NCBI GenBank assembly: GCA_002709385.1
Contig: PAQS01000040.1
Location: 62,001-126,000, forward strand
Length of the DNA: 64,000 nucleotides
Origin: Waddliaceae bacterium
Lineage (GTDB): Bacteria > Chlamydiota > Chlamydiia > Chlamydiales > GCA-2709385
Reading direction: 5' to 3'
Numbering within the stretch: the first letter of the stretch is position 1; the number at the start of each line of letters is the position of its first letter. The notes below the pieces were generated by a model, which had not been told where the DNA came from, made no database searches, and worked only from the letters and a program-made list of their open reading frames with translations. Position numbers and translations under genes: made by a program. Shown here piece by piece: positions 33,228-50,899 of the stretch.

Positions 33228-34850
33228 ATGGACTTAGAGAGTATTAAGAATATAGGGCGACAGTTGGCTAAAGTTTGGAAGGATATAAAGACCTACCAAA
33301 AATTTACAGTTGTTATGGTCGCTCTTACGCTATTGGCTACAATGGCGGTTTTGGTCTTCAACGCTGCTGCCAATAATTACACTCCTTTATTTCCAGCAGG
33401 GCGTTTATCTATCACTGATGCAGCTGATATTAAAGGCTATTTAGATAGTGCTCGCATTAACTATAAAATACGATCAGACACTTTGATTATGGTGAATGAG
33501 AAAGATGTGCACCGTGTGCGTATGGATCTCGCTACCGTAGGTATTCCTAAACAAAATGCCAGTAAAGGATTTGAACTCTTTGATACAAATACATGGATTA
33601 AAGGGGAGAAGGAACTACAAGTTCTTGAAATGAGGGCTTTAATTGGGCAATTAGAGCAGGATATCACTGAATATGAAAGTATTCGAGGGGCAAGTGTCAT
33701 GTTAGATATTGCACCTCCTCGTCCTTTTGGTGGTGCTATGTATAAGAGTAAGGCTTCTGTGATTCTTACACTTATGCCAGGAGGAAGGATAAGTGCATCC
33801 CAGCTTAGAGCGATTACTTATCACGTATCTGGCTCTGTTCGCGGTTTGATGCCTAACATGGTTGCAATATCAGATAATACAGGGAAGCTTTATCAAGCTT
33901 TAGATCCCGATGGTAATGCAGACATGCTTCGAAGTGCTGAATTTTCTTTGGAAGAGCGCTTAAAGTCTAAAATCGATGGCATGCTTGCAATGATTGTAGG
34001 GCATGGCAATTTCTATAGTACAGTACAGGTTTCCATGAATCGCGATAAAACGATTCGTGAAAGAAAGGTTTTTAGTGGTGAAGTGGATGGCGTTCAGCTG
34101 GGAGAAGCTGTAGTTCAAAGTGTTACCGAATCTGGTTCTCAGATGACTGAACGCGAAAGAATGGAGATGGGAACGCCAGGCTCTAATACCGAAGCTGTGG
34201 CTGGAGCTGTGGCTGGAGAAGGTGGACAAGTTCTCAATCGCGATGAAAGTCGGAATCAACAAGTTCGGCAAATGGCTGTTCCTATAGATCATGTTAAAAC
34301 CAATACGACTCCAGGGACAATTGAGAATATTTCTATTGGTGTGATGGTGGATAAGACAATTACTGTAGATAGTCTTGCCGATATCCCTGAAAGTGAAATT
34401 CAAAATGGTCTACGCGGAACTGAAATTTTAAGAACAGAAATAGAAAGTCAGTTAGCAAAAATTTTGGAAGGTTATGGGCTTCGTGCACAGCCGGCTGTAG
34501 ATTTCGTAGAGTTTGATCATACCCGTGTGATGAAGCAAGCAGCGGAAGAATCTTGGGGTTCAATGTTAGCTATGGCAACACAAATAGCAACAATCATTTT
34601 TGTTTTAATTACAGTATTTGGAATGTTCTGGAGTTTTAATCGCTTCTGGCGCCGTCATATGCTTCGTCCTCCAACTCTTGAACAAGATGAAGAAGATATA
34701 GATATGCACTTTATTGAAGAACCTTCTTTAGTTGAAGTGGAAGCAATGGTGGAAGCAATTAAAACTCGTTTCCAAAATGACCCACATACTGTTGTTGAAA
34801 CAGTTCGTGATTGGTTAGTAGATCAAGATCAAACAGTAAATAAATTCTAG
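33228..34850 (+). CDS. fliF: Flagellar MS-ring protein
   Basis: The 540-residue protein forms the inner-membrane MS ring that carries the rotor and export gate. Membrane segment 1 is about residues 27-46, and the ring-building domain with YTPLFPAGRLSITDAADI and GFELFDTNTWIKGEKEL follows. Segment 2 is about residues 447-468. The C-terminal tail ends in FQNDPHTVVETVRDWLVDQ, matching the FliG-binding tail of true FliF. The injectisome homologue SctJ is much shorter (about 250-330 residues) and lacks this tail. It is first in the operon fliF-fliG-fliH-fliI-fliJ-motE; fliE and the rod genes are not in the window. Confidence 0.95.
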   Translation: MDLESIKNIGRQLAKVWKDIKTYQKFTVVMVALTLLATMAVLVFNAAANNYTPLFPAGRLSITDAADIKGYLDSARINYKIRSDTLIMVNEKDVHRVRMDLATVGIPKQNASKGFELFDTNTWIKGEKELQVLEMRALIGQLEQDITEYESIRGASVMLDIAPPRPFGGAMYKSKASVILTLMPGGRISASQLRAITYHVSGSVRGLMPNMVAISDNTGKLYQALDPDGNADMLRSAEFSLEERLKSKIDGMLAMIVGHGNFYSTVQVSMNRDKTIRERKVFSGEVDGVQLGEAVVQSVTESGSQMTERERMEMGTPGSNTEAVAGAVAGEGGQVLNRDESRNQQVRQMAVPIDHVKTNTTPGTIENISIGVMVDKTITVDSLADIPESEIQNGLRGTEILRTEIESQLAKILEGYGLRAQPAVDFVEFDHTRVMKQAAEESWGSMLAMATQIATIIFVLITVFGMFWSFNRFWRRHMLRPPTLEQDEEDIDMHFIEEPSLVEVEAMVEAIKTRFQNDPHTVVETVRDWLVDQDQTVNKF

Positions 34851-34871
34851 GCCCACTAGTAGGAGATAATT

Positions 34872-35912
34872 ATGCCTGATATGACTGGGCAAATAGATTT
34901 TAATAATATGGATCAGTCGCAAAAAGCTGCTCTACTTATGATTGCCTTAGGCCACAAGTGGGCAACAGAAATTATGCGCCTCCTTAAACCAGCAGAGGTA
35001 AAAAAGGTTTCTTACTGGGTAAGTCAAGTCAATTATGTACCTCAAGAAGTTACAGAAGCGGTAATAAGAGAGTTTTATGAATCATTAGTGCGTAAAACGT
35101 CTTTATCTTCGACTGGAGGAAGAGATTATCTACTAGAAGTTCTCACTGGACTTATGGGAACAAATAAAGCAAGAGAATTAGTAGATGATATTGTAACTCA
35201 AGAAGATGCTGAAGTATTCCGTATCTTGAAAAAGGTTGATCCAAAACAGCTTGCTGCTCATTTAAAGCAAGAGCAGCCACAGACAGTTGCTCTCATGATG
35301 AGTTACTTAGAGCCAAGGCGTTCTGCCGCAATCATCGCAGAGTTTCAACAAGACATACAAACAGAAATTCTTCTTCGTTTAGCCAAGCTAGAAGAGACGG
35401 ATCCAGATGTAATTGGAGTAATGGAACGCTCATTACAAGATAGTTTAGGTTCTGTAGCAGCAGGTAAACAAATGAAGAAAATTGGTGGTATTAAAGTCGT
35501 AGCAGAGATTCTAAATAATGTAAGTAAAGATATTGAAAAATCTATCATGGATGACATTGGAGATAGAGATTTTGATCTTGCTACTGAAATTAAAGATCTT
35601 ATGTTCGTATTTGAAGATTTGGTGCTACTGGATGATAAATCAATTCAGACAGTACTGAAAGATGTTGAACAAAGTGATCTTGTGATGTCTTTAAAAGGTG
35701 CTACAGAAGGAGTACAAGAGAAGATTTTCCGCAATATATCCAAGCGACAAGTTGATTCTATCAATGACGAACTTGCATTCCTTGGACCTGTAAAGTCTTC
35801 TAGTGTCCATGACGCACAGCAAAAAGTGATCAACATCATCCGTAAATTGGATGAAGAAGGAAAAATCTTGATCCAAGGTAAAGGTGGTGGTGGAGATGAA
35901 ATCATCAACTAA
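34872..35912 (+). CDS. fliG: Flagellar motor switch protein
   Basis: The 346-residue rotor protein binds FliF, FliM and the stator. The N-terminal domain starts near MDQSQKAALLMIALGHKWA. The middle domain holds EQPQTVALMMSYLEPRRSAAIIAEF (the EHPQ-like motif reads EQPQ). The C-terminal torque domain aligns by eye with E. coli from FEDLVLLDDKSIQ onward. The charged torque residues are kept or conservatively changed: Lys in SLKGA, Arg in SKRQVD, Asp-Glu in INDELA, and Lys for Arg in GPVK. This argues for a working rotary motor. AGGAGAT lies just upstream of the ATG, 21 bp after fliF. Confidence 0.96.
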   Translation: MPDMTGQIDFNNMDQSQKAALLMIALGHKWATEIMRLLKPAEVKKVSYWVSQVNYVPQEVTEAVIREFYESLVRKTSLSSTGGRDYLLEVLTGLMGTNKARELVDDIVTQEDAEVFRILKKVDPKQLAAHLKQEQPQTVALMMSYLEPRRSAAIIAEFQQDIQTEILLRLAKLEETDPDVIGVMERSLQDSLGSVAAGKQMKKIGGIKVVAEILNNVSKDIEKSIMDDIGDRDFDLATEIKDLMFVFEDLVLLDDKSIQTVLKDVEQSDLVMSLKGATEGVQEKIFRNISKRQVDSINDELAFLGPVKSSSVHDAQQKVINIIRKLDEEGKILIQGKGGGGDEIIN

Positions 35913-36669
35913 TAAGATTATTCGAGACTCGCGTGTAGAGGGAGTTGTATTTTGCTCACCTGGCGGTCAAATCGAACGGGAAGATACAACGAAAAAGCGG
36001 GATGCTGAAAGTCTGAAAGCATTAGAAGATTTTTGGTACCATAAAGGACTTCAAGAAGGAAAAAAGCAAGGTTTTGATGAAGGACTTGCTGAAGGACTAA
36101 GTGATGGTTATCGAAAAGGACAGGCTGAAGGAAAAGAATTAGGAGATAAAGAAGGCTTTGAACGAGGAAAGTCTGAAGGGCTAAATGAAGGAAGAGCTGA
36201 AAAAGAAGCTGAATTAAGAGAAGCTATAGATAAAGTATTAAAACTAGCTGATTCCTTTGTAATTAAAATTGAAGAAGTAATGGACGAAGCAAAGCCTGAA
36301 ATCCTTCGTTACTGTAGTGCTCTTTGTGAACAAGTAATCGGAAGAGAATTAGAAAACCCTCAGCTTTTAGCAGAGATTGTAACAAAGCTGGTAAAGAAGA
36401 CACAAACAGTTGTTCGATCTGAGCCTCTTACAGTTTTTTTACCTAGTGTAGATTTTATTGTGGTTCATGATGCCATTACTAAACGCATAGAAGAAGCTTC
36501 AATTAAAGCCCAATTAGAAATTATTGAAGATGAGCATATGGGGCCAGGACGTTGTTTAATCCAGAGTTCTATGGGCGCGTTCTCTTTTGATGTTAATCGG
36601 CAAATTCAAGAACTTGAAAGGCTTGCGTTTGAAGTGAAGGAAGAAGACAAGACTGAGGACCAAAATTAA
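35896..36669 (+). CDS. fliH: Flagellar export ATPase regulator FliH
   Basis: The protein of about 257 residues is the FliI-binding stator of the export ATPase. From about residue 50 there is an uninterrupted run of 13 glycines spaced exactly four apart (G-LQE-G-KKQ-G-FDE-G and so on), the GxxxG helix repeat typical of FliH/SctL. A C-terminal domain similar to the V-ATPase E subunit follows (LRYCSALCEQVIGRELENP, EDEHMGPGRCLIQSSMGAF). I chose ATG 35896 with GGTGG upstream; GTG 35884 would add four residues. It overlaps fliG by 17 bp, and its TAA shares a base with the fliI ATG. Confidence 0.92.
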   Translation: MKSSTNKIIRDSRVEGVVFCSPGGQIEREDTTKKRDAESLKALEDFWYHKGLQEGKKQGFDEGLAEGLSDGYRKGQAEGKELGDKEGFERGKSEGLNEGRAEKEAELREAIDKVLKLADSFVIKIEEVMDEAKPEILRYCSALCEQVIGRELENPQLLAEIVTKLVKKTQTVVRSEPLTVFLPSVDFIVVHDAITKRIEEASIKAQLEIIEDEHMGPGRCLIQSSMGAFSFDVNRQIQELERLAFEVKEEDKTEDQN

Positions 36670-37979
36670 TGGGATTTTGTCTTGATAAGGAAGTAAAAGC
36701 TATCCAGAGCTGGTCGGGGATCAAAATGAGTGGGCGAGTCAGTCAAATTATTGGCCTTCTCGTTGAGTCTGTTGGTCCTAATGTTCATATGGGTGAGATG
36801 TGTCTCATTTATAACAGAGATGGAGAGGCAATTCCTTGTGAGGTTGTAGGGTTTAAAGATAATAAAGTTCTTTTGATGACCTTAGGAGAAATGCGACGTA
36901 TTGCTCCAGGATCAGAGGTTTATCCTACTGGTGATGTACATATGGTTTCCGTTGGTGAAGCTCTCTGTGGTCGAGTGATTGATGCCATGGGAAACCCAAT
37001 TGATGGAAAAGGTCCCATAGCGAGAAAAAAGCTTTATCCAGTAGAAGCAGCTCCTCCAGAAGCATTAAAACGAAATCGTATTCGAGATGTCTTAAGAACG
37101 GGAGTTCGTGCTATTGATGGCACATGCACTGCTGGAAAAGGTCAGCGCTTTGGTATTTTTGCTGGCTCTGGTGTAGGTAAATCTACTCTAATGGGAATGA
37201 TTGCAAAGATGTCAGAAGCAGATATCAATGTAATTGGACTTATTGGTGAACGGGGAAGGGAAGTTCGTGAATTTATTGAACGAGAACTTGGGCCAGAAGG
37301 ATTAGCAAAATCTATTGTAGTTGTTGTAACTTCTGACCAACCAGCTCTTTTAAGAGCAAGAGGACCAAACGTAGCGACTGCAATAGCTGAGTATTTTCGA
37401 GACCAAGGAAAAAATGTTGTTCTCATGATGGACTCCATCACTCGCTATTGTATGGCTTTAAGAGAAATTGGTCTTGCAGTAGGAGAGCCTCCAACGACCA
37501 AAGGTTATACCCCTTCTGTGTTTGCGATGATGCCTAAAGTACTAGAACGGGCTGGAAACTCTGATAAAGGATCGATTACAGGCATCTATACAATTCTAGT
37601 GGAAGGTGATGATATGAATGATCCCATCGCCGATACAGCACGATCGATTTTAGATGGACATATTGTATTATCTAGAAAATTAGCTGCCGCTAACCATTTT
37701 CCAGCCATAAGTGTTTTAGATAGCTTATCTCGTGTAATGTCAGATGTAGGATCTTCTGATTTGATTGATCATGCTGGAAATTTGCGTGATTTATTGCAGG
37801 TTTACGCTGAAGCAGAAGATTTAATCAATATTGGCGCATATGCCGCAGGATCCAACTCTAAAATTGACAGAGCAATTGATCGAATCGATAAAATTAAAGA
37901 ATTTTTACAGCAAAAATCTGATGAACATACCGCCTTCGAAGAAACAAGTGATTGGATGAAAAAGGTAGTAAGTGAGTGA
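36669..37979 (+). CDS. fliI: Flagellar export ATPase
   Basis: The 436-residue F1-beta-like ATPase energises unfolding and entry of export substrates. Visible motifs are Walker A GIFAGSGVGKST, LIGERGREVREFIE, Walker B NVVLMMDSITRYCMALREIGLA, EPPTTKGYTPSVFA and TVLVEGDDMNDPIAD-type text (ILVEGDDMNDPIADTARSIL). An SctN assignment cannot be excluded from motifs alone. The neighbours fliG, fliH and fliJ make FliI the clear call. Its position matches CT717 in the Chlamydia trachomatis remnant. Start and stop overlap both neighbours (TAATG and GTGA), so translation is coupled. Confidence 0.95.
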   Translation: MGFCLDKEVKAIQSWSGIKMSGRVSQIIGLLVESVGPNVHMGEMCLIYNRDGEAIPCEVVGFKDNKVLLMTLGEMRRIAPGSEVYPTGDVHMVSVGEALCGRVIDAMGNPIDGKGPIARKKLYPVEAAPPEALKRNRIRDVLRTGVRAIDGTCTAGKGQRFGIFAGSGVGKSTLMGMIAKMSEADINVIGLIGERGREVREFIERELGPEGLAKSIVVVVTSDQPALLRARGPNVATAIAEYFRDQGKNVVLMMDSITRYCMALREIGLAVGEPPTTKGYTPSVFAMMPKVLERAGNSDKGSITGIYTILVEGDDMNDPIADTARSILDGHIVLSRKLAAANHFPAISVLDSLSRVMSDVGSSDLIDHAGNLRDLLQVYAEAEDLINIGAYAAGSNSKIDRAIDRIDKIKEFLQQKSDEHTAFEETSDWMKKVVSE

Positions 37980-38440
37980 AACGATTTCGTTTTAGATTAG
38001 AAAATGTCTTGTCCGTTCGAAAGACTGAAGAAAAAGAAGCAATGAAAGAAGTTTCAATTGCTAAGATGCATTATGACGGAATTCGAGAGAGATTACGTAA
38101 GTTAGAGCTGGATGGAAAAAGAACAGAAGAAGAAATACGGGTAGCGCAGCTAAATCGAATACAGATTGAACAGATAACAGCAGGGCACGAATTTCTAAAA
38201 GCTTTGAAGCGGAAAATACAAGAAGGACTAGAAGAACTGCATGAAGCAGATAAAATATTAAAATCTAAACAAGCTATATTAGTAGAAAAGACTCAAGAAA
38301 GGAAAACTCTTGAACGTCTAAAAGAAAAAAAATATGAAGAATGGTTGAAGAACTTGAAATGGCAAGAATCTGTCGAAATTGATGAAATTGCATCTACACG
38401 TTATTTAAGGAAGCAAGGAGAAATAAAAAATGAATTTTAG
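37976..38440 (+). CDS. fliJ: Flagellar export chaperone/stalk protein FliJ
   Basis: The 154-residue, almost wholly helical coiled-coil protein begins KRFRFRLENVLSVRKTEEKEAM, the usual FliJ start (F-x-LE-x-VL-x-xR). FliJ inserts into the FliI hexamer as a central stalk and escorts chaperones. The GTG start overlaps the fliI stop as GTGA. The 3' end overlaps the next gene by 11 bp. Position in the operon is as strong as the sequence evidence, because FliJ proteins diverge widely. Confidence 0.85.
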   Translation: MKRFRFRLENVLSVRKTEEKEAMKEVSIAKMHYDGIRERLRKLELDGKRTEEEIRVAQLNRIQIEQITAGHEFLKALKRKIQEGLEELHEADKILKSKQAILVEKTQERKTLERLKEKKYEEWLKNLKWQESVEIDEIASTRYLRKQGEIKNEF

Positions 38441-39080
38441 AATAATTGGAACTCTATCCTTGATCATATTAGTAGTTGCAGGACTTATCGCTGTTGCTTT
38501 TTATTTTGGAAGCAAGCGTGGAGCACAACAATTTGCACTTCAATCTTCTATTGCAGGAGTCCCACAAGCAAGCACGAGTGTAGGATTTGTTGAAACAGTA
38601 CCAGAGGCATCACCAGTTCAAGCAGAATTAGATCAGCTTTCAGAACAAATGATCGCTGATTTAAGAGCAGAAAACCGACTAAATTTAAATATGTTAGCAC
38701 AACTTCGTTCTTATCAAGAAATGCTTCGTCAAATTGAAGGGTATGCAAAGAAAGTAGAGAAAGACCTTACTCTTCTAGAAGAAATTTCAAAAGATGAGTT
38801 TCAAGAAGATGTACAGCTACAAGCTGCACTATTCGGTGGAAAAAAGCCTGAGCTAGTGGCTAAGCACTTAGAAGAATTCCGAGCAGGGAGAGTGGGTGCC
38901 ATTCTTTCTAAAATGAAAGACAAGGAAGCAAGCGCTGTTCTCGATGTTTGGGCAAAACAAAAAAGTCCTAAAGTCAGCGCTTTTTATCGAGAAGTCACAT
39001 CGGCTTACTTAAATAACAAAAGAAGGGATTTACACCCTGAACTCTTCAAAGAATTTAGCGCTGAAGCTGATAAAAAATAA
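38430..39080 (+). CDS. MotE-like flagellar protein (membrane-anchored, MgtE-N-like domain)
   Basis: The 216-residue protein has one N-terminal membrane segment (IIGTLSLIILVVAGLIAVAFYFG), a coiled coil at about residues 60-120, and a C-terminal FRAGRVGAILSKMKDKEASAVLDVWAKQ segment. That segment resembles the magnesium-transporter N domain found in MotE proteins. MotE genes usually follow fliJ, and the family stabilises periplasmic stator components in alphaproteobacteria. The exact role here is inferred. It overlaps fliJ by 11 bp and is the last gene of the flagellar operon. No motA or motB is in the window. Confidence 0.72.
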   Translation: MNFRIIGTLSLIILVVAGLIAVAFYFGSKRGAQQFALQSSIAGVPQASTSVGFVETVPEASPVQAELDQLSEQMIADLRAENRLNLNMLAQLRSYQEMLRQIEGYAKKVEKDLTLLEEISKDEFQEDVQLQAALFGGKKPELVAKHLEEFRAGRVGAILSKMKDKEASAVLDVWAKQKSPKVSAFYREVTSAYLNNKRRDLHPELFKEFSAEADKK

Positions 39081-39165: not shown

Positions 39166-39268
39166 TTTCTTAGCTCGTGAATAGAAAAGTTCACGGGACG
39201 GTTTTTCCTTAGCTAAGAAAAAAACTCCAATAAGAAGTACAAGCAGAAAATACGAGTAAGCTAGCTTA
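39166..39268. promoter_or_regulatory. Nested hairpin and palindromes between the flagellar and chemosensory operons
   Basis: TTTCTTAGCT (39166-39175) faces AGCTAAGAAA (39211-39220), a perfect 10-bp repeat. It encloses CGTGAA (39176-39181) facing TTCACG (39190-39195). CTTAGCTAAG (39208-39217) is itself a 10-bp palindrome, and TAAGCTAGCTTA (39257-39268) is a 12-bp palindrome 11 bases before the cheW-like start. The nested hairpin could end the flagellar transcript, and the palindromes could be operators of the che operon. Confidence 0.4.
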
Positions 39269-39279: not shown

Positions 39280-39702
39280 ATGGCTGAAGAGCAATACCTC
39301 ATTTTTAAATCACATGGGAGTAATTCAGCGGTATCGATTGAATTTGTAGATCGAGTTGTTCATGCCTCTGCAATTATCGAAAATCCAAATAGACAAGGAC
39401 GTATCGGTTTCATCAATTTAGCTGGTGAAGTCACTCCTGTTTATGACATTGATACTGAACAAATTTTTCATCATTCTCAAGAACCAATAAAACCTGAACA
39501 AAAATTTATTATTCTTTCTTCTCCTAGACTAAAGTTGATACTTCTAATAGACGAAATAATAGAAATAGATTCGCTTGAAGTGAATCAAAGGTCAATAGAG
39601 GAAGGACCTTATTTTTTATCTAGTTACCGTAATGGAATGATTAAGGTAATTAATCACAATTGGTTGTTTGGTTTACAAGATCATGAGCTTAGAGTTTTCT
39701 AG
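39280..39702 (+). CDS. CheW-domain adaptor protein (first of two)
   Basis: The 140-residue protein matches a single CheW-like SH3-type domain: EQYLIFKSHGSNSAVSIEFVDRVV, GFINLAGEVTPVYDIDTE (the usual N-x-RG-x-V-x-P-VxD segment here reads N-LAGEVTPVYD), and LILLIDEIIEIDSL. CheW proteins couple receptors to CheA. This one is more diverged than the second CheW at 41048, so it may serve a different receptor or pole. It is the first gene of the chemosensory operon and overlaps cheR by 20 bp. Confidence 0.75.
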   Translation: MAEEQYLIFKSHGSNSAVSIEFVDRVVHASAIIENPNRQGRIGFINLAGEVTPVYDIDTEQIFHHSQEPIKPEQKFIILSSPRLKLILLIDEIIEIDSLEVNQRSIEEGPYFLSSYRNGMIKVINHNWLFGLQDHELRVF

Positions 39703-41017
39703 TAGTAATGGATTTGACTGTATAGCAGAGAAAATCAGTGAACGTATTGGTTTGGATAAAAACCTTATTCGTTGGGAAAAGCTGATAACAGAGCTACGCG
39801 ATGTAACAAGCAAACCCTTTGAAGAAGCGGTTACGTGGTTAGTAGAAGATCGCTGGTCTCCAGAACACTCCTGTATACTGGCTCAAAGCCTTATTCCTTC
39901 GACAAGTAAATTTTTTCGAAATAAACGTTTACATCAACTCATAGAAAAATGCCCTATCCACGAGTGGTTAAATCGTTCGTATTTAGATCATTCTATCATT
40001 AAGGTTTGGTCTGCAGGATGTAGTACTGGAGAAGAACTGTATTCTATAATGATGCAATTACAAGAGCTATATCCTCAGTACCACTATGAATTTTTTGGTA
40101 GTGATATCAATATGAATTCTTTGCAAAAAGCAAGATGTGGAAGATATAAAGCCGATGCATTTCCTCAAAGATACAAGAACTTGCGCGATAAATATTGTGA
40201 TCATGTTGATGGGGAATATTTAGTAAAAAAAGAATTTCGAAATCGAGTGAATTTTTTTCAGCACAATTTAGTCTATGAAGCACTTCCAAAGTTTTTAAGA
40301 AATGTAGATATTATATTATGCCAAAATGTATTGATTTACTTTTCCGATAAAGCACTAGATTTTGTTGTTCAGAAATTTTGTTCTAGCCTATCTAACAAAG
40401 GGGTACTTATTACTTCTCCTTTTGAGTTATCTCGAGTTCAAGAACTTAAGTACCTGCACAGTTTAGTAGAATATGATTTATCTTTATTTCGTCATAAGCC
40501 TCTCCCTCCTTCCAGAAAAAAAAGCAAACATCAAAAGTTTCATCATTTAGACCGTTTTCAAATCAAAATAGAATCCATAAAAGAAAAAGAACTTAGTCCT
40601 AATTTTTCTTCTGACAGAGAAAAAATAGACAAACTCTATAAGAATTTAGAGAAAGAGAATGCAAAAGATAAGAAAAAAAATTTGGAAAAAATAGCTCAAG
40701 AGTTCCCTCTAAACTACTACGCTTATTATTTAAAAGGGATTCATCTACGAGAATCTGATTGTTTGAGAGAAGCTCTGGATGCTTTTAATGCCTGTCTTTA
40801 TTTAAAACCTGACTGCTATTTAGCGTTATTTATGTTGGGAAATATTCTGTATCAGAAAGGAACTTACCAGGAAGGAGAGCGAACGATATCACATCTTGTA
40901 GAATTATTAAGTAAGAAAAATAAAGATGAGCATTTACCAGAAGATCCTAATTGTACTCTAGGAGATTTAAAGTCACTTGCTAAGCAACTACTAGACATAT
41001 GGAGCAATGTTTCTTAG
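39683..41017 (+). CDS. cheR: CheR chemoreceptor methyltransferase with C-terminal TPR
   Basis: The 444-residue protein adds methyl groups from SAM to receptor glutamates. The N-terminal CheR helical domain has FFRNKRLHQLIEKC. The Rossmann domain has IKVWSAGCSTGEELYSIMM, FFGSDINMNSLQKAR and the VDIILCQNVLIYFSD stretch. About residues 335-444 contain TPR-like repeats (YLKGIHLRESDCLREALDAFNACLYL), as in CheR proteins of alternative chemosensory systems and some flagellar ones. I prefer ATG 39683 over a TTG at 39668. It overlaps the CheW-like gene by 20 bp. Confidence 0.9.
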   Translation: MSLEFSSSNGFDCIAEKISERIGLDKNLIRWEKLITELRDVTSKPFEEAVTWLVEDRWSPEHSCILAQSLIPSTSKFFRNKRLHQLIEKCPIHEWLNRSYLDHSIIKVWSAGCSTGEELYSIMMQLQELYPQYHYEFFGSDINMNSLQKARCGRYKADAFPQRYKNLRDKYCDHVDGEYLVKKEFRNRVNFFQHNLVYEALPKFLRNVDIILCQNVLIYFSDKALDFVVQKFCSSLSNKGVLITSPFELSRVQELKYLHSLVEYDLSLFRHKPLPPSRKKSKHQKFHHLDRFQIKIESIKEKELSPNFSSDREKIDKLYKNLEKENAKDKKKNLEKIAQEFPLNYYAYYLKGIHLRESDCLREALDAFNACLYLKPDCYLALFMLGNILYQKGTYQEGERTISHLVELLSKKNKDEHLPEDPNCTLGDLKSLAKQLLDIWSNVS

Positions 41018-43602: not shown

Positions 43603-45897
43603 ATGGATGCTTCATTCCGTGCACAACTAACTAAAGTATTTATTCAAGATACTTATGATAGCTTACTTGATTTATCCAATAGATTTGCCTTATTGGACTC
43701 CGTTAGCGAAAATGTATATCAAGAAAGTTTGCTTGATTTATACCGTGACATTCATGGGATCAAGGGTGCTGCAGCGTGTGTTGAGTGGGAACGGACAAAT
43801 AGAATATGTCATTTATTAGAGTCCAAGTTCCATACAATTTGTGAGCACAGTATTAAATTAGATGAAGAGCAAATCGTTTTTTTTAATCAGATTTTTCGCT
43901 ACCTCGTTGATTGCTTTCAAAAAGCGCACAATTCTACCGATGATCATCCTTTAGAAGAAGAATACATTTCAGATCCCAAATATACTTGCTTACTTGATTT
44001 GCTAGAAAATTATGGGAATAGTGGAGCAAGTAGCTTTCCTGGGACACTCCAAGAGAATTGTAAGGTTGAAAAAAGAGAAGAAGCTGGAAAATATTTGATC
44101 TCGTCTGAAAAGGCAATTGAACAGTCTCAAAATACTGATTCTTACAAAGAAGGTTTATCTTCCACTTCAAATTCGAGTAGCTTCTTGGCTGATTTGACAG
44201 ACGGAAGCACCATTACATTTGCGGAGAAAACAACGATTTCATTTGAAAAATTAGATAAGCTTCTACTTTGTGTTGAAAAACTGTCTCTATTCCAAAGTGG
44301 TTTTGATGACTATCTCAGTACTTTAGAAACGATGAAGCAACGTGTTTTGGAATTCAAAGATCCAATTCTGCAAGAAATTCAAGATGTTTTACATGGATTT
44401 TCCTCTCTCAAACAAGAGCTTTCGGAAAAACAACGACTTGCTAGTCAGCTTCACAAATCTATAGAAAAAACAATGGAAGAAGTGTTGATGCTTCCTTTAA
44501 GTCTTTTTCTACAGGGGTTTTCGTCTTGGACAAAAAGCCTTGCTGAAAGACTGGGAAAAAAGGTCAAACTTTCTATAGCTGAAACAAATATTCAAGTAGA
44601 TAAACGCGTACTAGACACGATTAAAGAGCCTTTATTACATCTCTTAAGAAATGCCCTAGATCATGGTTTAGAATCTCCTACTGCACGAATTCGTTTAGGT
44701 AAAGATGCGTGTGGAGAAATTACAATTGTATGTGAACAAACAGAACAACATAGATTAAAAATCACAGTAGCTGATGATGGGAAAGGATTAGATCTAGATA
44801 GTATTCGAAAGACAGCTCTCGAAAAAGGCCTCTATGAGCGACAAGAAATAGATAAGCTAAGTACAGAAGAACTCAAACAGCTCATATTTACGCCCCATTT
44901 TTCTACTTCAAATGTCATTACCGATATTTCGGGTAGAGGCGTTGGTATGCATGCGGTAAAAGCAGCAGTTCAAAGACTTCAAGGTAATCTCCAACTTAGT
45001 TCAGTTGCACAGCAAGGTACTTGCTTTAACATAGAAGTACCCTTGTCTGTGACAGCAATTAAAGGAACCGTTGTTGGGACAGAAAAAGCCTCAGCTCTTA
45101 TTTTATTTCAACACACTCAAAAAGTGATCGAAATTTCACCATCAGAAGTCATAAGAAACAAAAACTTACTTTCATTTAAGTATGAAGGTATGAATGTTCC
45201 TCTTTTACCCCTACATAATATTTTTGGTGAAACGTTTGATGTAGATAAGAAGGAAAGAATCATTATTGTGGTTGTTTCTATTAATGATAAATTACTGGGT
45301 ATAGCAGTTTCTAAGTTGTTATCACAAACTGAGGTGTATATGAAAAAGCTTACACCACAGTTAGAAAAAACTCCGTTTGTATTTGGTTACGCTGTTTTAG
45401 GGAGTCAAAAGGTCATTCCGATTCTTAATTGCAAAGAGCTTGTTTTAAATAAGCGTTATGAACTTATTGATGAAGAGATAGAAGTTCTTACTCACTCCGA
45501 AATTCCTCAAGAAAAAAAGCAAAAAACAAGCACAAAAACGATATTGGTAGTCGAAGATAATTTGACTCCAAGAATGGTTCTCATCTCTCTTTTACAAAGC
45601 GCGGGATATAAAACTCTTTCTGCAGTAGATGGTTTAGAAGGTTTGAGTATTCTCCAGTCAGAAAAAAATATAGATATGGTCATTACAGATATAGAAATGC
45701 CCAATATGAATGGTTTTGAGCTTATTGAAAAAATTCGGTCAAAGCATAGAAAACCAAACATCCCAATTATCATTGTGAGTACTTTGGAGTCTTCAGAATA
45801 CAAGAAAAAAGGCTTGGATTATGGAGCAAACGCGTTTGTAGTGAAAGGAAAATTTGAAGAAGAATCGCTTCTAAATATTGTTAGAAACTGGGTTTAA
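43603..45897 (+). CDS. cheA: CheA histidine kinase fused to a receiver domain (CheA-Y hybrid)
   Basis: The 764-residue protein has an HPt domain with His51 (LYRDIHGIKGAAACVEW), a dimerisation segment, and an HATPase domain with LLRNALDHGLESP (N-box), VADDGKGLD and the GRGVGMHAVKAAVQRLQG lid. A CheW-like domain (about 490-625) and a C-terminal receiver with VVEDN, the acceptor Asp in ITDIEMPNMNGFE (about residue 696) and Lys in VVKGK follow. All key residues for both kinase and receiver are kept. The fused receiver may act as a phosphate sink or as the output in place of CheY. AAGGAG precedes the ATG, 10 bp after the MCP gene. Confidence 0.94.
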   Translation: MDASFRAQLTKVFIQDTYDSLLDLSNRFALLDSVSENVYQESLLDLYRDIHGIKGAAACVEWERTNRICHLLESKFHTICEHSIKLDEEQIVFFNQIFRYLVDCFQKAHNSTDDHPLEEEYISDPKYTCLLDLLENYGNSGASSFPGTLQENCKVEKREEAGKYLISSEKAIEQSQNTDSYKEGLSSTSNSSSFLADLTDGSTITFAEKTTISFEKLDKLLLCVEKLSLFQSGFDDYLSTLETMKQRVLEFKDPILQEIQDVLHGFSSLKQELSEKQRLASQLHKSIEKTMEEVLMLPLSLFLQGFSSWTKSLAERLGKKVKLSIAETNIQVDKRVLDTIKEPLLHLLRNALDHGLESPTARIRLGKDACGEITIVCEQTEQHRLKITVADDGKGLDLDSIRKTALEKGLYERQEIDKLSTEELKQLIFTPHFSTSNVITDISGRGVGMHAVKAAVQRLQGNLQLSSVAQQGTCFNIEVPLSVTAIKGTVVGTEKASALILFQHTQKVIEISPSEVIRNKNLLSFKYEGMNVPLLPLHNIFGETFDVDKKERIIIVVVSINDKLLGIAVSKLLSQTEVYMKKLTPQLEKTPFVFGYAVLGSQKVIPILNCKELVLNKRYELIDEEIEVLTHSEIPQEKKQKTSTKTILVVEDNLTPRMVLISLLQSAGYKTLSAVDGLEGLSILQSEKNIDMVITDIEMPNMNGFELIEKIRSKHRKPNIPIIIVSTLESSEYKKKGLDYGANAFVVKGKFEEESLLNIVRNWV

Positions 45898-45903: not shown

Positions 45904-46884
45904 ATGATAAGAACCCTCCTCATTGATCACTCATCATTATGCCAAGCGTTCTTAGCTTCTTTGAAATCATTAGAAAAAGAACTAAGACTAGTAGAACTTG
46001 TTCAAAACTCCCATGAAGCTCTAGAAATTTTAGAACATTCAGCTATTGATTTAGTTGTTGCAAAACAAGGTTTATGCAAAGAACTTCAAGATAAAAAATG
46101 CTTTTCTAAGGTGGTAGCAATTGAACTTGATGATCTAGATGAACAAGGCAAAATCTCTTTGAGAGCTTTTCAAATTTCGGATTGTGATCAGAAAAACATT
46201 TGCTTAAAAAAAATGTTGCAAGCAGTAGATCACGGATTTATCTATACAAAAGAAAAGAAATTTATAAATTTACCTGGAATCTATTTTGATTCAAAAATTC
46301 TAAATTGGAATCCACAAAAAGATCGTTTTATCTGTATAGGAGCATCTACTGGTGGAGTAGAAGCAATCAGTTCGATCATTAAATCATTACCACCACTTTT
46401 ATCTGTTCCTCTTATTATTATTTTACATATTCCAGAAGCATATACAAAAAATCTCTTAGAGCAATGGCAACGAATTTCTTCTATTCCAGTATTAGGGATC
46501 AGGCATAACGATGTTTTGAAAAAAAATAAAATTTATATTGCGTTGACACATCGACATGTAAAAATTTCCACAGAAGGGAAATTTCAATTTGACTCATCTA
46601 TTCCTGTTAATAATTTTTGCCCCTCAATTTCGACATTATTTCTTTCTGTAATAGAAAGTGGATTATCAAAAAACTGCATGGCTATTTTGCTTACGGGTTT
46701 AGGCTATGATGGTGCTCATGAGCTCGTAGAAATCAAAAAAAAGGGTGGAAAAACTCTCGTACAAGAAAAAGAAAGTTGTGCTGTATTTGGGCTGGGAGCA
46801 AGTGCTATGGCTAAAGGACAACCTACATATTATGCGCCATTAAAAGATATTCCAGAAATCATCAAGTCTTTTTCAAGGAATTAA
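45904..46884 (+). CDS. cheB: CheB-type receptor methylesterase with degenerate receiver domain
   Basis: The 326-residue protein ends in a CheB catalytic domain (about 138-326) with the nucleophile Ser in GASTGGVEA, His in ILHIPEAY and Asp in LTGLGYDGAHEL, so the triad is complete. It removes receptor methyl groups or deamidates glutamines. The N-terminal part of about 115 residues has receiver length and begins TLLIDHSS. At the phospho-Asp place it reads DLVVAKQGL, with Lys54 (codon 46063-46065) where Asp is expected. Phosphorylation control by CheA is therefore probably lost. The gene is 6 bp after cheA. Confidence 0.9.
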   Translation: MIRTLLIDHSSLCQAFLASLKSLEKELRLVELVQNSHEALEILEHSAIDLVVAKQGLCKELQDKKCFSKVVAIELDDLDEQGKISLRAFQISDCDQKNICLKKMLQAVDHGFIYTKEKKFINLPGIYFDSKILNWNPQKDRFICIGASTGGVEAISSIIKSLPPLLSVPLIIILHIPEAYTKNLLEQWQRISSIPVLGIRHNDVLKKNKIYIALTHRHVKISTEGKFQFDSSIPVNNFCPSISTLFLSVIESGLSKNCMAILLTGLGYDGAHELVEIKKKGGKTLVQEKESCAVFGLGASAMAKGQPTYYAPLKDIPEIIKSFSRN

Positions 46885-46889
46885 GATAA

Positions 46890-48143
46890 ATGGAAGATAG
46901 TACTTTACCTAATAAAAATATTTTGATTGTTGAGGATACAGCAACTCAAAGACTTTACCTTGAAAATATATTAGAACGATTTTCTTGTATTGTAACATCA
47001 GCAAAGAATGGAAAAGAAGGCTGGGAAGCTTTTCAGAAAGGAAATTTTGACTTAGTCATTAGCGATGTTCTCATGCCTGAAATGAGTGGTTTTGAACTTT
47101 GTCACAGAATTAAAAGTACAGACAAAGGGAGAAAGACCCCAGTCATGTTGTTGACAACTTTAAAATCACCACTGGATGTGATTCAAGGAATTGAATGCCA
47201 AGCTGACAATTTTGTAATGAAACCTTTTGATGAAGAATTCATCATACTGCGCGCATCTTCTTTGATGAAAACGCAAGAGTTACGAACACAGGAGCATTTT
47301 CTAGTAAATAATACATTTATAGAAGTACCCGTCATTGCAGAACACCATGCTATAGCATTACATTCGCACCCAATTAGTTCATTGGATCTACTTCTTTCTG
47401 TCTACGAAAACGCAGTATTAAATAATCAGAAGTTAGCACAGATGTATAGCAAAGCTGAAAAGCTTAATCATGAACTGGCGATTGAAAAAGAGAAGAACGA
47501 TCGCATCTTAAGAGTAACTCTTCCTGAAGAAATTTTAGATGAACTAAAAATGAATGGAGTTGTTGCTCCTAAGCAATACAATAATGTTGCGATTCTTTTT
47601 GTCGATATTGTGAATTTTTCACAGTATTGCGATACACATTCAGTTGCCGAGCTAACGTTTTGTTTGCAGAAATTGATCAAGCACTATGAAGAGATTAGCC
47701 AAAAATTTGGAATGCGTAAAATTAAAACTATTGGTGATGAATTTATGGCTGCAGGAGGTTTATTTGACCAACCTGAAAATATTTGTCTCCAAGCTGTTCG
47801 TTGTGCTTTCTCGATGAGAGAAATTACAGCGACTCTTCCTCCTGGATGGGAAGTTCGTATTGGGATTCATTTTGGCTCAGTTATAGGAGGCGTGATAGGA
47901 AATCAACAGTATGCCTTCGATATTTGGGGAAGAGATGTGAATGTTGCTTCGAGGATAGAACATTTCTCTGCACCCAATGAAATATTAGTAAGCGATGCTG
48001 TGTGGAATCAGGTAATGTTTAATTATCAGAAAGCAAGTTCAAAGGAAGTTGAACTCAAGGGTTGTGGAAGATACCTCATCCACAGCATCAGCTCTGATCA
48101 AGTAGATAAGATACCTGTAATGGAGGAGGAATTAAAAACGTAA
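46890..48143 (+). CDS. Receiver domain fused to class III adenylate cyclase
   Basis: Of 417 residues, about 1-130 are a full receiver: LIVEDT, acceptor Asp in VISDVLMPEMSGFE, Thr in LLTTLK and Lys in VMKPFD. A helical linker follows (about 145-215), then a GGDEF-unrelated class III cyclase catalytic domain. It has AILFVDIVNFS and KTIGDEFMAAGG (metal-binding Asp pair, with Lys fitting ATP use), IGIHFGSVIGGVIG, and DIWGRDVNVASRIE with the Asn and Arg of the transition-state site. All catalytic residues seem present, so cAMP synthesis is likely. It lies 5 bp after cheB and closes the operon, so CheA-dependent phosphorylation may control it. Confidence 0.92.
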   Translation: MEDSTLPNKNILIVEDTATQRLYLENILERFSCIVTSAKNGKEGWEAFQKGNFDLVISDVLMPEMSGFELCHRIKSTDKGRKTPVMLLTTLKSPLDVIQGIECQADNFVMKPFDEEFIILRASSLMKTQELRTQEHFLVNNTFIEVPVIAEHHAIALHSHPISSLDLLLSVYENAVLNNQKLAQMYSKAEKLNHELAIEKEKNDRILRVTLPEEILDELKMNGVVAPKQYNNVAILFVDIVNFSQYCDTHSVAELTFCLQKLIKHYEEISQKFGMRKIKTIGDEFMAAGGLFDQPENICLQAVRCAFSMREITATLPPGWEVRIGIHFGSVIGGVIGNQQYAFDIWGRDVNVASRIEHFSAPNEILVSDAVWNQVMFNYQKASSKEVELKGCGRYLIHSISSDQVDKIPVMEEELKT

Positions 48144-48527
48144 CCAAGTAAAATGTTTGTCTGTCTTTATGGTTCGCATGTTTCGTTTCAACTTTGAAAC
48201 TCTTCCCGAATAGGTCTTACAATCCTGAGATGCTTGCAAAACCGTCGATTTTTTTCTGGTGTTTTTCCTTATCTTAAACAATGTCATTCCAATATTTCAT
48301 GAGTATTTTCAGTAGGAAAAATATTTAAAAAAGTAAGCTCAAGCTTAGAGAAAGGAATTGATAGAGTATATTGTATTTTCATAGGAAACAACTAAATGAT
48401 TGATTTATGGGTTTTTTTGAATAATACTCTTTATAAAAGAGCCTGTTTTCGATAAAATTGATATGTTTGTTTTATTATAAAGATATCCAGACCAAGAGCT
48501 GTTTAACAAAGGAAGAGGTTGTGATTC
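48144..48527. other. 384-bp intergenic region after the chemosensory operon
   Basis: No coding frame of note. GTTTCAA (48185-48191) and TTGAAAC (48194-48200) form a compact inverted repeat about 40 bases after the cyclase stop; this may be a weak terminator, but no T run follows directly. TAAGCT (48334-48339) and AGCTTA (48342-48347) form a second palindrome, resembling TAAGCTAGCTTA before the che operon. AGGAAGAGG near 48510 is the ribosome site of the next gene. No tRNA or other RNA fold was recognised. Confidence 0.35.
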
Positions 48528-49871
48528 ATGAATGATATAGAGCATCATGTAGAATCTGAAAGTCTTTTGTGTCGCTATCCTCAATTTTCATCTCTTATAA
48601 AAAAACAAATTTCGAATATTGATCCTGTTTTGTTTCGTCAGCAAAAGCTATTGTGTGGTGAAAATACAGAGAAGATTGCAGCAACAATTTCTCCTTTTAA
48701 TTCTTATGAAATGGCACAAGAGCAGAGCAGTACTCTTGGGGAGTCTTTACTTAAAAAAGGGAAATTAGCTTGTTTATTGGTTGCAGGCGGACAAGGCTCC
48801 CGTTTAGGATTTAAAGGACCTAAAGGAAAATTTCCACTTACGACAGAAAAAAATAAAAGTCTTTTCCAGTATTTTGCAGAAAAAGTTCTCGCTGCAAGTA
48901 GACAGGTAGAAAGAGACCTGCATATTGCGATCATGACTTCTGAGCAAAATCATGAAGAAACCCTTGAGTTTTTCCAGAAGCATAAATACTTTGGTTTGAA
49001 AAAAGAACAAATTGATTTTTTTACACAAAAAAGTCTACCTCTTCTGAATACGGAAAAACAATTATTTTTATCTGCTCCTGGCCAAATTGCAATGGGGGCT
49101 GCTGGCAATGGAACCGCATTGTATGACCTTACTCAGGCTGGAATCACCCAAAGATGGAAAAATCTTGGCATAGAGTATGTGCACTTTATTCAGGTGGACA
49201 ATCCACTGAGCGATCCTTTTGATGCAAAACTTTTGAGTTTTCATGTTTCAAAAGAGCTCGATATTTCCGTTAAATGTGCTTTAAGAAAAGATCCAGAAGA
49301 AAGTGTTGGAATTTTAGTAGAAAAAGACAACAGAGTAGCAGTAGTAGAATATAGTGAAATAGATGAGAGAGAACGAAAGCTTTGTGATGGAAAAGGACAA
49401 CTTATCCATCGTTGTGCAAATCTTAGCCAATTTTGTTTTAATCTCGACTTTATCTTAAAAGTTGCTGGGCAAGGCTTAGCAACTATGCCGTTACATATTG
49501 CATCGAAGACAAGTCTTTCTTGGGAAAAAGAAAGTAATGAGAAAAAAATAGCAGTATGGAAATCAGAATACTTCATTTTTGATGTAATGGCTTACTCTAG
49601 TAAAGTAGCAGCTTTGCTTTATTCAAGAAAAGATTGTTTTGCTCCCTTAAAAAATGCATCAGGAAGAGATAGCATTGAAGAGGTTCGCAACGCCTTATTA
49701 CAGTCTGATCGCAAAGCATATGAAGCTCTAAGTGGGTGTTCTGCTCCATCTAGAGTATTCGAGTTAGCTCTCGACTTTTACTATCCTAGTCCAAAAATGG
49801 CAGCTTATTGGTGGGGTAGATCATTACCAGAGCGTCCTTATATCGACGCATTTATTGACATGCAGCTTTAA
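48528..49871 (+). CDS. UDP-sugar pyrophosphorylase, eukaryote-type UDP-N-acetylhexosamine pyrophosphorylase family
   Basis: The 447-residue protein has the UAP1/UGPase motif LLVAGGQGSRLGFKGPKGKFPL near residue 83. Further matches are SLFQYFAEKV, IAIMTSEQNHEETLEFF, APGQIAMGAAGNGTALYDL and VHFIQVDNPLSDPFD, typical of eukaryotic UAP1/AGX1. It should make UDP-GlcNAc or UDP-GalNAc from UTP and the sugar-1-phosphate, which feeds cell-envelope synthesis and the amino-sugar genes downstream. Chlamydia carries the same eukaryote-like family at CT715, directly before gpsA (CT714), as here. Exact sugar specificity cannot be read from sequence alone. Confidence 0.88.
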   Translation: MNDIEHHVESESLLCRYPQFSSLIKKQISNIDPVLFRQQKLLCGENTEKIAATISPFNSYEMAQEQSSTLGESLLKKGKLACLLVAGGQGSRLGFKGPKGKFPLTTEKNKSLFQYFAEKVLAASRQVERDLHIAIMTSEQNHEETLEFFQKHKYFGLKKEQIDFFTQKSLPLLNTEKQLFLSAPGQIAMGAAGNGTALYDLTQAGITQRWKNLGIEYVHFIQVDNPLSDPFDAKLLSFHVSKELDISVKCALRKDPEESVGILVEKDNRVAVVEYSEIDERERKLCDGKGQLIHRCANLSQFCFNLDFILKVAGQGLATMPLHIASKTSLSWEKESNEKKIAVWKSEYFIFDVMAYSSKVAALLYSRKDCFAPLKNASGRDSIEEVRNALLQSDRKAYEALSGCSAPSRVFELALDFYYPSPKMAAYWWGRSLPERPYIDAFIDMQL

Positions 49872-49900
49872 CTTGCGTAGCGTAGATACAGGAGGATCTT

Positions 49901-50899
49901 ATGAAAATTGCTTATCTTGGTGCAGGAACATGGGGATTTGCCCTAGCAACATTACTCGCTCGCAAAGGGCATCAGGTAATGTTGTGGACAAATAGGTCTG
50001 ATTTAAAAAAATACATTACAGAGAAGCGTGAACACCCTAAATTACCTGGCTACTCTTTTGAAGGAGATCTACGCGTTACATTAGATATGGCTGAAGCGTT
50101 AGATCATGCTGAATGTATAGCGGAAGCTGTTACCTCAGCAGGTATTCGACCTGTTTTTACACAAGTATCTCAAATTCAAAAACCCCAGTGTCCCATTGTT
50201 CTCACGTCAAAAGGAATTGAGCAAAAAACAAGCTTATTTCTTCCAGAAGTCGTTCTCGATGTGCTAGGAGAAGAATTACAGCCGTTTGTAGCTTGTTTAA
50301 GTGGACCTAGTCACGCAGAAGAAGTCATTCGATCCTTACCTAGTTCTGTTGTGTGTGCTGCCTATGATCCTTCTGTTCGAAATGCGGTATGTTCTCTATT
50401 TAGTACAGAGAGTTTTCGAGTCTACCCTAATAGTGACCTAAGAGGAGTTGCTCTAGGAGGAGCCTTGAAAAATGTGATTGCCATCGCATGTGGAATTTCT
50501 GATGGACTTGGTTTTGGAGACAATACTAAAGCTGCTTTGATGACACGAGGACTACACGAAATTCACAAGCTCGCTCAAACCCTAGATTGTGAAACGAGCA
50601 CTCTTATGGGACTCTCAGGTATGGGAGATCTGGCGGTAACGTGTTGGTCTGAGCATGGAAGAAATTATCGCTTTGGAAAATTACTAGCAAAATACGGTGA
50701 CGCTAAAAAAGCTAAAGAAGAAATTGGTATGGCAATTGAAGGAATTTATTGTTGCGTTTCAGCACATGAATTAGCCCAAGTGAAGCAAGTTCCTATGCCT
50801 ATTACAGAAAATGTATATAAAATCCTCTATAAAGGCATAGATGCAAAAGATGCTGTTGTAGCACTGATGCAGAGAGAAGTCAAAGAGGAGCATTTGTAA
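49901..50899 (+). CDS. gpsA: Glycerol-3-phosphate dehydrogenase [NAD(P)+]
   Basis: Reduces dihydroxyacetone phosphate to sn-glycerol-3-phosphate for phospholipid synthesis. The 332-residue protein begins MKIAYLGAGTWGFALATLLA (GxGxWG dinucleotide loop) and continues with VLTSKGIEQ, ACLSGPSHAEEV, GVALGGALKNVIAIACGISDGLGFGDNTKAAL (substrate site with the catalytic Lys) and LSGMGDLAVTCWSEHGRNYRFG. AGGAGG lies six bases before the ATG. It follows the pyrophosphorylase gene by 29 bp and is one base from the next gene. Confidence 0.97.
   Translation: MKIAYLGAGTWGFALATLLARKGHQVMLWTNRSDLKKYITEKREHPKLPGYSFEGDLRVTLDMAEALDHAECIAEAVTSAGIRPVFTQVSQIQKPQCPIVLTSKGIEQKTSLFLPEVVLDVLGEELQPFVACLSGPSHAEEVIRSLPSSVVCAAYDPSVRNAVCSLFSTESFRVYPNSDLRGVALGGALKNVIAIACGISDGLGFGDNTKAALMTRGLHEIHKLAQTLDCETSTLMGLSGMGDLAVTCWSEHGRNYRFGKLLAKYGDAKKAKEEIGMAIEGIYCCVSAHELAQVKQVPMPITENVYKILYKGIDAKDAVVALMQREVKEEHL

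Follow-up and report, generated by a model that had tools for sequence, protein, structure and literature searches.

A flagellar locus with separate fliF and fliG genes in a Waddliaceae bacterium, its neighboring chemosensory operon, and the fused FliF-FliG forms of other chlamydiae

The closest described relatives of the locus treated here are the flagellar remnants of Chlamydia and the flagellar and chemosensory (che) genes of other chlamydiae. In the Chlamydiaceae, FliF and FliG are fused, a state published as possibly ancestral there, with docking of SctQ on the FliG domain proposed (Bergeron 2016, PMC4768692). In C. pneumoniae the FliF C-terminus binds FlhA and FliI binds CdsL and CopN (Stone 2010, PMC2830194), fliF, fliI and flhA are among the genes that fall after sigma-factor knock-down (2023, PMC10597470), and the role of the Chlamydia flagellar genes is described as unknown (PMC2830194, PMC4682100). 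Flagella and chemotaxis genes are known in marine chlamydiae, and the ancestor has been inferred to be motile (Collingro 2017, as cited in PMC5826181, PMC8242063 and PMC9816063); che operons are also described from unflagellated chlamydiae (Pillonel 2018, PMC5826181). Here we describe a flagellar block followed by a che operon in a window of 64,000 nucleotides from Waddliaceae bacterium GCA_002709385.1 (contig PAQS01000040.1; G000:C40:62001-126000), and compare it with these systems.

The assembly, genome G000 of family f1, comprises 3.15 Mb in 49 contigs, is 97% complete and is placed among the Chlamydiota, and all seven loci with FliF relatives in named records are chlamydial, bearing out the chlamydial origin claimed in a preliminary description of the window. 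The phylum sample comprises 232 genomes, with G000 as the only representative of f1; G042 belongs to family f8, G060 to f16 and G032 to f5. Family f4 is taken as Chlamydia-type on the gene order CT719-CT714, which we take to be that of Chlamydia. Family f9, which groups with f4 in the GpsA tree (support 98/97), is taken to be Candidatus Sororchlamydiaceae, the sister of the Chlamydiaceae, represented by metagenome-assembled genomes of sponge, sediment and fungal mycelium (PMC9666466).

The flagellar block and the genes that frame it on the right are as follows.

33228..34850, + strand: fliF, MS-ring protein, 540 aa, full length (Pfam YscJ_FliF 130 bits, YscJ_FliF_C 42; TIGR00206 152.8, over its cut-off)
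34872..35912, + strand: fliG, separate full-length rotor/switch protein, 346 aa (Pfam FliG N/M/C 103/85/142 bits; TIGR00207 317 bits)
35884..36669, + strand: fliH, export ATPase regulator (Pfam FliH 40.4 bits)
36669..37979, + strand: fliI, export ATPase (Pfam ATPase 297; TIGR03497 FliI_clade2 645.6, over its cut-off; tree)
37976..38440, + strand: fliJ (Pfam FliJ 45 bits; TIGR02473 68.6, over its cut-off)
38430..39080, + strand: conserved membrane protein after fliJ ("MotE-like"; homologues at the same position in G042 and G060)
48528..49871, + strand: UDPGP-family pyrophosphorylase (UAP), right flank of the frame (Pfam UDPGP 112.9)
49901..50899, + strand: gpsA, right flank (Pfam; tree)
50901..52445, + strand: nnrDE-type NAD(P)HX repair protein, following gpsA in the conserved frame (Pfam YjeF_N, Carb_kinase)

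Gene content and order are thus as the preliminary description had them, and every gene it listed is present, all but one with a Pfam family match. The exception is the gene called MotE-like, a label based only on an N-terminal hydrophobic stretch and position: its homologues in G042 and G060 score 149 and 185 bits, and it has no Pfam or NCBIfam match at the thresholds used (one chance-level Pfam line, E 0.29; no MotE model was among the results, possibly a library gap). FliF, FliG, FliI (clade 2) and FliJ pass the curated NCBIfam cut-offs. Pfam finds no FliG_M in the window FliF, and its score against FliG is at shuffle level. NF004606, the model for the Chlamydiaceae FliF-FliG fusion, is split over the two adjacent genes, with model positions 55-176 matching FliF and 288-337 matching FliG, both below the whole-protein cut-off.

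We read the order of the genes flanking FliF in 17 genomes. G042 and G060 have FliF-FliG-FliH-FliI-FliJ-MotE-like-UAP-GpsA without che genes, and chance is not an issue for the flagellar order because it recurs in these two other families. The ten f9 genomes all have FliF-FliH-FliI, with FliJ matched in six, where it is the gene directly before UAP, and with UAP-GpsA in nine (the G047 contig ends after FliI). The order is FliF-FliH-FliI-UAP-GpsA in three f4 genomes (FliH unmatched in G025) and FliF-UAP-GpsA-NnrDE in G078, and the FliF-FliG stretch of G087 is without UAP. A UAP match is present in 228 of the 232 genomes, and nnrDE follows GpsA also in G078, G092, G058, G032 and G057. In 10 of 30 UAP loci (these include G078 and G032, and some are too short to show a neighbor) a glycosyltransferase-like gene with an RMPNW.GD-type start, recognized by eye, lies directly before UAP, making an empty site; a search for decayed fliF-fliG between these two genes in G092, G094, G098, G099, G102, G061 and G093 gave nothing convincing.

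The FliF proteins of f9, f4 and G078 carry a FliG-like segment in place of the FliF tail. Pfam FliG_M is found in all 14 fused-type FliFs profiled (E<=5e-4; 11 over the cut-off) and in none of the four separate ones, those of the window, G042, G060 and G087; by group these are 10/10 in f9 (eight over the 25-bit cut-off), three of three in f4, all over the cut-off and drawn from 19 f4 genomes with a FliF match, and G078 with 21.9 bits. Local alignments to the window FliG exceed all 200 shuffles for 14/14 fused tails and 0/4 separate tails. A profile of the four separate FliGs covers FliG 99-247 in G078 (E 7e-15) and about 107-177 in most f9 proteins (weakest in G047, E 0.002), and FliG profile matches are present in all 15 short f4 loci fetched (L055-L069; whole-protein E 2e-7 to 1e-4). 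NF004606 covers the f9 protein in one stretch, and an AlphaFold model of an f9 tail (pLDDT 77.5, pTM 0.47) has FliG middle-domain crystals as its top structural matches (4qrm_D, 0.6 A over 48 columns), with a best E of 0.006 for this short piece.

Two further loci extend the range of fused forms. In G032, UAP is immediately preceded by a 526-aa open reading frame (ORF), a more diverged FliF that includes FliG 142-327 (E 2e-15) and also matches a FliF profile built without G032 (E 9e-14); profile fu2 contains G032 and G078, whose scores with it are by construction, fu contains G078 and not G032, and fg was built from separate FliGs only. In G095, a 151-aa ORF before UAP matches FliG 112-181 (E 3e-7), and stop codons break up the FliF part upstream of it, in an assembly that breaks other genes too, such that decay and sequencing error are indistinguishable. 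We note that in the alignment the first ring-building part of FliF is apparently missing in the f9 subgroup G050-G052, in G078 and in f4, and was perhaps lost separately.

These forms share their domains, and in Chlamydia-type genomes also the gene place, with the Chlamydiaceae fusion, which has the FliG middle domain at the FliF C-terminus (PMC4768692); the window differs in that fliF and fliG are separate and complete, and f9, G078, G032 and G095 differ in that their fused forms keep various amounts of FliG and of the ring domains. The preliminary description took the window as a fuller state of a locus from which Chlamydia had lost fliG and the che genes. The flagellar part of this holds, given the same block in G042 and G060 within the UAP-gpsA frame, and the loss of fliG is wrong in detail: judging from alignments and profiles, FliG is not simply lost in Chlamydia, and a piece of it is fused onto FliF, as was already published for the Chlamydiaceae (PMC4768692). 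We found no later treatment of this fusion in the literature searched, which leaves most subscription journals outside its scope. What the window locus adds is the unfused state, which makes the fusion look derived.

By its gene content the G000 genome encodes a nearly complete flagellum, and the other flagellar genes that the preliminary description said to look for are present. Elsewhere in the genome there are profile matches for FlgF/G-type rod proteins, FlgA, FlgC, FlgD, FlgH, FlgI, FlgK, FlgL, FlgN, a rod-binding protein, FliE, FliK, FliM, FliN, FliP, FliW, FlbD, MotA, MotB, FlhA, FlhB, an FlhF-like GTPase and two of the flagellins, with FlgC, the FlgF/G type, FlgD, FlgH, FlgI, FlgK, FlgL and flagellins over their cut-offs, FlgB just below and FliL below. 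The FlgE-type hook gene is assigned only from PF00460 and its length, and the sigma-28-type factor from its location and its sigma regions; FliO-, FliQ- and FliR-like neighbors of FliP and a CsrA-like ORF were read by eye (FliQ and FliR by position and length only). Among the parts expected of a complete flagellum, those found are the MS ring, FliG with its torque domain, FliM and FliN, the rod, hook, P and L rings, hook-associated proteins and flagellin, and FlhA, FlhB, FliP, MotA and MotB. There are ten Flagellin_N matches on several contigs (FlgL, four proteins of ~250-270 aa, four of ~560-615 aa, and one under the cut-off), which is many for a chlamydia. The order flhB-flhA-flhF-x-sigma28 is common to G000, G042 and G060 (L160 5896-11949, L174 and L175; the latter two by eye), perhaps a second frame of the same kind; Chlamydia presumably also keeps flhA adjoining its sigma-28 gene.

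Across the sample such genes are rare. Full FliG is found in 4 of the 232 genomes (G000, G042, G060 and G087), and rod domains and flagellin over the cut-off are each found in three (G000, G042 and G060); a flagellin match in G189 (E 4e-4) is under the cut-off. The G087 FliF has 27% identity to that of the window and belongs to a second, unrelated flagellar-type cluster (L072, G087:C107:25000-44999, 8030-18101) with FliF, full FliG, FlhA, FliH- and FliN-like genes recognized by eye, and an FlgE-type hook gene (FlgE_D2 38.9 bits), in an assembly with 6% contamination; no rod match (E<=0.001), flagellin or chemoreceptor (MCP) match was found in the G087 genome. Weak FliG_C matches occur in 14 further genomes, 12 of which were rejected as one family with L013, which matches MgtE structures (E 2e-43; the other 11 match L013). 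The remaining two are the G032 FliF-FliG and a different gene in a type III secretion cluster of G223 (L021, 1090-1929), coding for 279 aa between SctJ-like and SctL-like genes (by eye); its FliG_C score of 20.2 bits is below the cut-off, and its product could be an adaptor of rotor origin in the position of SctK.

The che operon is separated from the MotE-like gene by 199 bp and from UAP by 384 bp.

39174..39197, + strand: terminator-like hairpin between flagellar block and che operon (pattern scan; weak on its own)
39280..39702, + strand: cheW-1 (Pfam CheW 45.7 bits)
39668..41017, + strand: cheR, 449 aa, with weak C-terminal TPR matches (Pfam CheR 125.8; TPR_16 21.8, TPR_2 20.2)
41048..41578, + strand: cheW-2 (Pfam CheW 49.2)
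41604..43592, + strand: methyl-accepting chemoreceptor, NIT sensor and HAMP (Pfam NIT 65.6, HAMP 38.4, MCPsignal 111)
43603..45897, + strand: cheA-REC hybrid kinase, canonical His-51 in IHGIKG (Pfam Hpt, HATPase, CheW, Response_reg; residue read; tree)
45904..46884, + strand: cheB methylesterase (Pfam CheB_methylest only)
46890..48143, + strand: REC-class III nucleotide cyclase, the operon's output, predicted to be an adenylate cyclase (Pfam Response_reg 88.7, Guanylate_cyc 133; alignment to AC5/8/9)

The N-terminal part of CheB is degenerate and receiver-like, with no receiver match and no phospho-acceptor motif by eye, and none of the seven genes codes for a stand-alone CheY (no single receiver). 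The cyclase has D239, K279, D283, D344, N351 and R355 at the motif positions aligned to AC5/8/9, which we take to be the two metal Asp, the Lys/Asp for adenine, and the Asn/Arg; these residues are those of ATP-using class III enzymes, and the protein is predicted to be an adenylate cyclase. The G000 genome encodes four cNMP-binding domains, as well as a second REC-cyclase, whose gene immediately follows one weakly similar (57 bits) to the window histidine kinase (L089, G000:C19:196000-215999, 1-3222) and a third REC-cyclase match on C29. The GC content of the operon is 0.350, compared with 0.391 for the fli genes and 0.393 for UAP-nnrDE. A sigma-28 promoter in the 199-bp gap was dropped, as only a -35-like half was seen, and sigma-70-like sites in the region are fewer (28) than in shuffles (49.6).

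Operons of this kind have relatives of several types. Two CheW, CheA-REC and CheB, as in the window, are presumably also the components of Wsp. Like the alternative-function pathways described in PMC3447774, the window has a multidomain response regulator as output, the REC-cyclase; those pathways also have CheR fused to TPR, to which the window CheR, with TPR matches below the cut-off, may correspond. The window operon differs from Wsp in that the output is a class III cyclase and not the diguanylate cyclase WspR (REC-GGDEF), and from flagellar-type chemotaxis operons in the absence of CheY as a gene of its own. Mononucleotidyl cyclases are among the domains analyzed there, so the kind of che system in the window is already known (PMC3447774). 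Several che operons of unflagellated chlamydiae, a group described in PMC5826181, share the order CheW-CheR-CheW-MCP/CheA-CheB-REC output with the window, with REC-HK, REC-SpoIIE or REC-cyclase outputs, and these operons are not at the UAP stretches searched; no link of such an operon with flagellar genes was found in the other stretches searched. Like the marine chlamydiae of Collingro 2017, as described in the citing papers, the bacterium of the window is a member of the Chlamydiota with flagellar and che genes, with the difference that its che operon resembles those with alternative functions.

At E<=1e-30, the CheA of the window has matches in 26 of the 232 genomes, with identity of at most 34% outside the window's own, and rod domains are found in only two of these 26 (G000 and G042; 24 are without). 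Among 20 CheA loci fetched, CheR, CheA and CheB are together in 12, nine of which include an MCP gene, located before CheA as in the window in two and after CheA in the other seven. Ten candidate outputs were profiled, giving five REC-HK, three REC-SpoIIE, one REC-cyclase and one unrelated dehydrogenase, and in five f21 genomes a full-length relative of the REC-cyclase is encoded no more than about 1.1 kb from a CheA. The CheA tree includes the window, 32 other chlamydial CheAs on fetched loci (the search matched 41 places, the window among them) and five outgroups, with pQBR103 left out; the window is sister to the class holding the REC-HK operons and does not group with the remaining cyclase operons, whereas the G042 CheA is placed among those of the SpoIIE operons. 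From this position and the REC-cyclase gene, the window che operon combines a core of the first, REC-HK class with a cyclase output.

We consider it likely that the window holds a chlamydial flagellar basal-body locus in the unfused state, in a genome with a nearly complete flagellum, and that a separate chemosensory operon has been inserted between the flagellar genes and the pyrophosphorylase; from its neighborhood in relatives the che operon does look like a separate insertion. Several points weigh against this. The che insertion is seen in one genome only, f1 being otherwise unsampled, and repeated loss of che genes elsewhere has still to be reckoned with. The window CheA branch is very long (2.84) and its sister placing has support of 87/76; GC3 does not clearly separate the fli and che blocks; and the hairpins found in the region (11, compared with 8.3, sd 3.1, in shuffles) are within chance in number. 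The CheR TPR matches (E 3e-4 and 6e-4) are both below the Pfam cut-off, the FliFs of G078, G046 and G047 are below the FliG_M cut-off, though above all shuffles, and the flagellum inventory covers neither FliD nor FliS nor FlgM. The remaining points concern swimming: the window CheA is the only one in G000 at E<=1e-30 (4 of 41 candidates scored) and, if the flagellum is chemotactic, may serve it, and G000 FliN begins with MDELSNEEVDSLSNAM, which we take to resemble a CheY-binding peptide.

These last points also speak for a reading in which the operon controls the swimming of this flagellum and was recruited to its locus because the two work together, as do the linkage itself, three MCP matches in the genome, and several short single-receiver proteins encoded elsewhere in it. 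The operon has no stand-alone cheY, its output is the REC-cyclase, FliM, which starts after an in-frame stop, is without what we take to be the usual N-terminal peptide, and operons of this type are frequent among chlamydiae that have no rod genes; we regard swimming control as unlikely. More probably the operon has an alternative cellular function, in which the NIT receptor would control CheA-REC, which would phosphorylate the REC-cyclase, and cyclic AMP would be made and then read by cNMP-binding proteins encoded elsewhere; we infer that the system may act independently of swimming.

That the che genes were part of the ancestral locus and were lost by Chlamydia and other relatives along with fliG, as the preliminary description had it, is quite improbable. 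The operon does sit inside a conserved frame, its CheA weakly groups with other chlamydial CheA, and chlamydial CheA proteins score up to 316 bits compared with 234 for the best non-chlamydial one (core region, phmmer), such that a source outside the phylum need not apply. However, the MotE-like gene adjoins UAP in G042 and G060, FliJ does so in six f9 genomes, the che genes of G042 are of another class and on other contigs, and several independent losses would be needed as opposed to one insertion. The seven che queries gave no match in the 62 stretches searched, which come from other chlamydiae and surround UAP or FliF (17 FliF loci, 29 short UAP loci and 16 longer ones; many are short and several come from one genome).

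A recent arrival of the flagellar block by horizontal transfer is very improbable. Separate fliG is rare, as noted above, and one of its four holders (G087) has a different FliF; against transfer, three families share ~60% identical FliF and the same right flank, remnants lie in the same frame in f9, f4, G078, G032 and G095, and all chlamydial FliI are on one side of the outgroup branch (91/91). The FliI tree (window, 15 stretches holding FliI and four outgroups; the G078 and G087 stretches have no FliI) splits f9 and f4, the f4 branches being long, from window, G042, G060 and the outgroups with 100/99. In the GpsA tree the window is near protist-infecting families and not with G060 (92/88; 98/97 in a wider set; G042 GpsA is cut off), and the UAP tree resolves too poorly to place the window. 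The FliI, FliF and GpsA trees are compatible with vertical descent.

With the FliG columns removed, fused and separate FliFs fall on two sides of one branch in the FliF tree (100/99 without G087, 62/0 with it); with these columns kept the branch has 74/35, and the tree is compatible with a single origin of the fusion. FliG-N and the FliF tail are encoded by the separate genes but absent from the fused forms, and a split could not bring them back, pointing to a change from separate to fused, with the fusion as the derived state. Separate fliF and fliG genes are also the rule in flagellated bacteria. An ancestral fusion, as suggested in PMC4768692, with separate genes arising by fission, would fit the wider spread of the fused form among sampled chlamydiae, but is barely credible given the parts that a split could not recreate. 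The distribution of fused forms over f4, f9, f5 and f21 suggests that the fusion may have originated before the split between Chlamydiales and Amoebachlamydiales named in PMC9816063.

On balance we favor a single in-frame fliF-fliG fusion that predates the separation of the Chlamydiaceae/Sororchlamydiaceae branch from the protist-infecting chlamydiae. It would have removed the FliF-FliG interface and made the rotor a fixed ring that contains its own C-ring adaptor. In the intact flagellum FliF would form the MS ring, separate FliG would bind the FliF tail and carry torque, and FliH, FliI and FliJ would feed the export gate. In ancestors of Chlamydia and its relatives, a deletion in the adjacent fliF and fliG would have linked the membrane portion of FliF, in frame, with the FliG middle domain, removing the FliF tail and FliG-N; what was left of FliG, together with the rod, hook, stator and filament genes, would have been lost to different degrees. 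The stages of this process may survive as the unfused locus (window, G042 and G060), fusions with FliG M and C (G032) or with M and a portion of C (G078), fusions with M alone, either beside retained export genes (f9) or with a shortened ring (Chlamydia), a broken copy (G095) and the empty site. We infer that the left-over ring could hold a C-ring protein such as SctQ on its built-in FliG middle domain without turning.

Within the same reading, f9 would have a flagellum-derived secretion system and not a flagellum. No FliG_C, rod or flagellin match at E<=0.001 was found in any of the ten f9 genomes, seven of which are at least 90% complete, and G049 has a second FliP with FliO/Q/R-like neighbors, adjoining three genes like those found there in G000; from these data f9 has parts of the export apparatus and not of the motor. 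Of the export gate, the search in f9 covered FliP, in G049.

To the left, the flagellar block is preceded by a divergent gene.

29283..32888, - strand: long coiled-coil protein, 1201 aa, divergent left neighbor of fliF (N-terminal likeness by eye)

A similar N-terminus is present in a gene near fliF of G042 and G078 (31 and 119 bits), where a glycosyltransferase-like gene, the one that precedes UAP at the empty sites, lies between; these likely homologues, of 1480 and 665 aa, are near a ruvC-like gene, and the window gene is without a Pfam match. Farther left, positions 6980-26393 hold a large surface-polysaccharide cluster with Wzz-like, SLBB exporter, Wzy, MatE flippase, MBOAT and glycosyltransferase genes. 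The aroL-C-B-DE order reported at the left end of the window is there, preceded by aroA (aroA-aroL-aroC-aroB-aroDE; Pfam matches aroC, aroB and aroDE, and the first two genes were recognized by eye).

Flagella, che genes and the FliF-FliG fusion are each already known in the Chlamydiota, and the interest of this locus lies in the unfused genes and the graded fused forms, which jointly may explain the origin of the Chlamydia remnants. The sponge-associated Sororchlamydiaceae have been suggested to use flagellar genes to encounter new sponge hosts (PMC9666466), and our reading casts doubt on their reaching hosts by these genes. With an intact locus and a series of fused forms to compare, the flagellar genes of Chlamydia would be those of a dismantled motor whose ring kept its FliG adaptor. 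Their function thereby becomes testable, by asking whether the FliG domain holds SctQ, and it may become possible to place the loss of swimming in time against the divergence of animal and protist chlamydiae.

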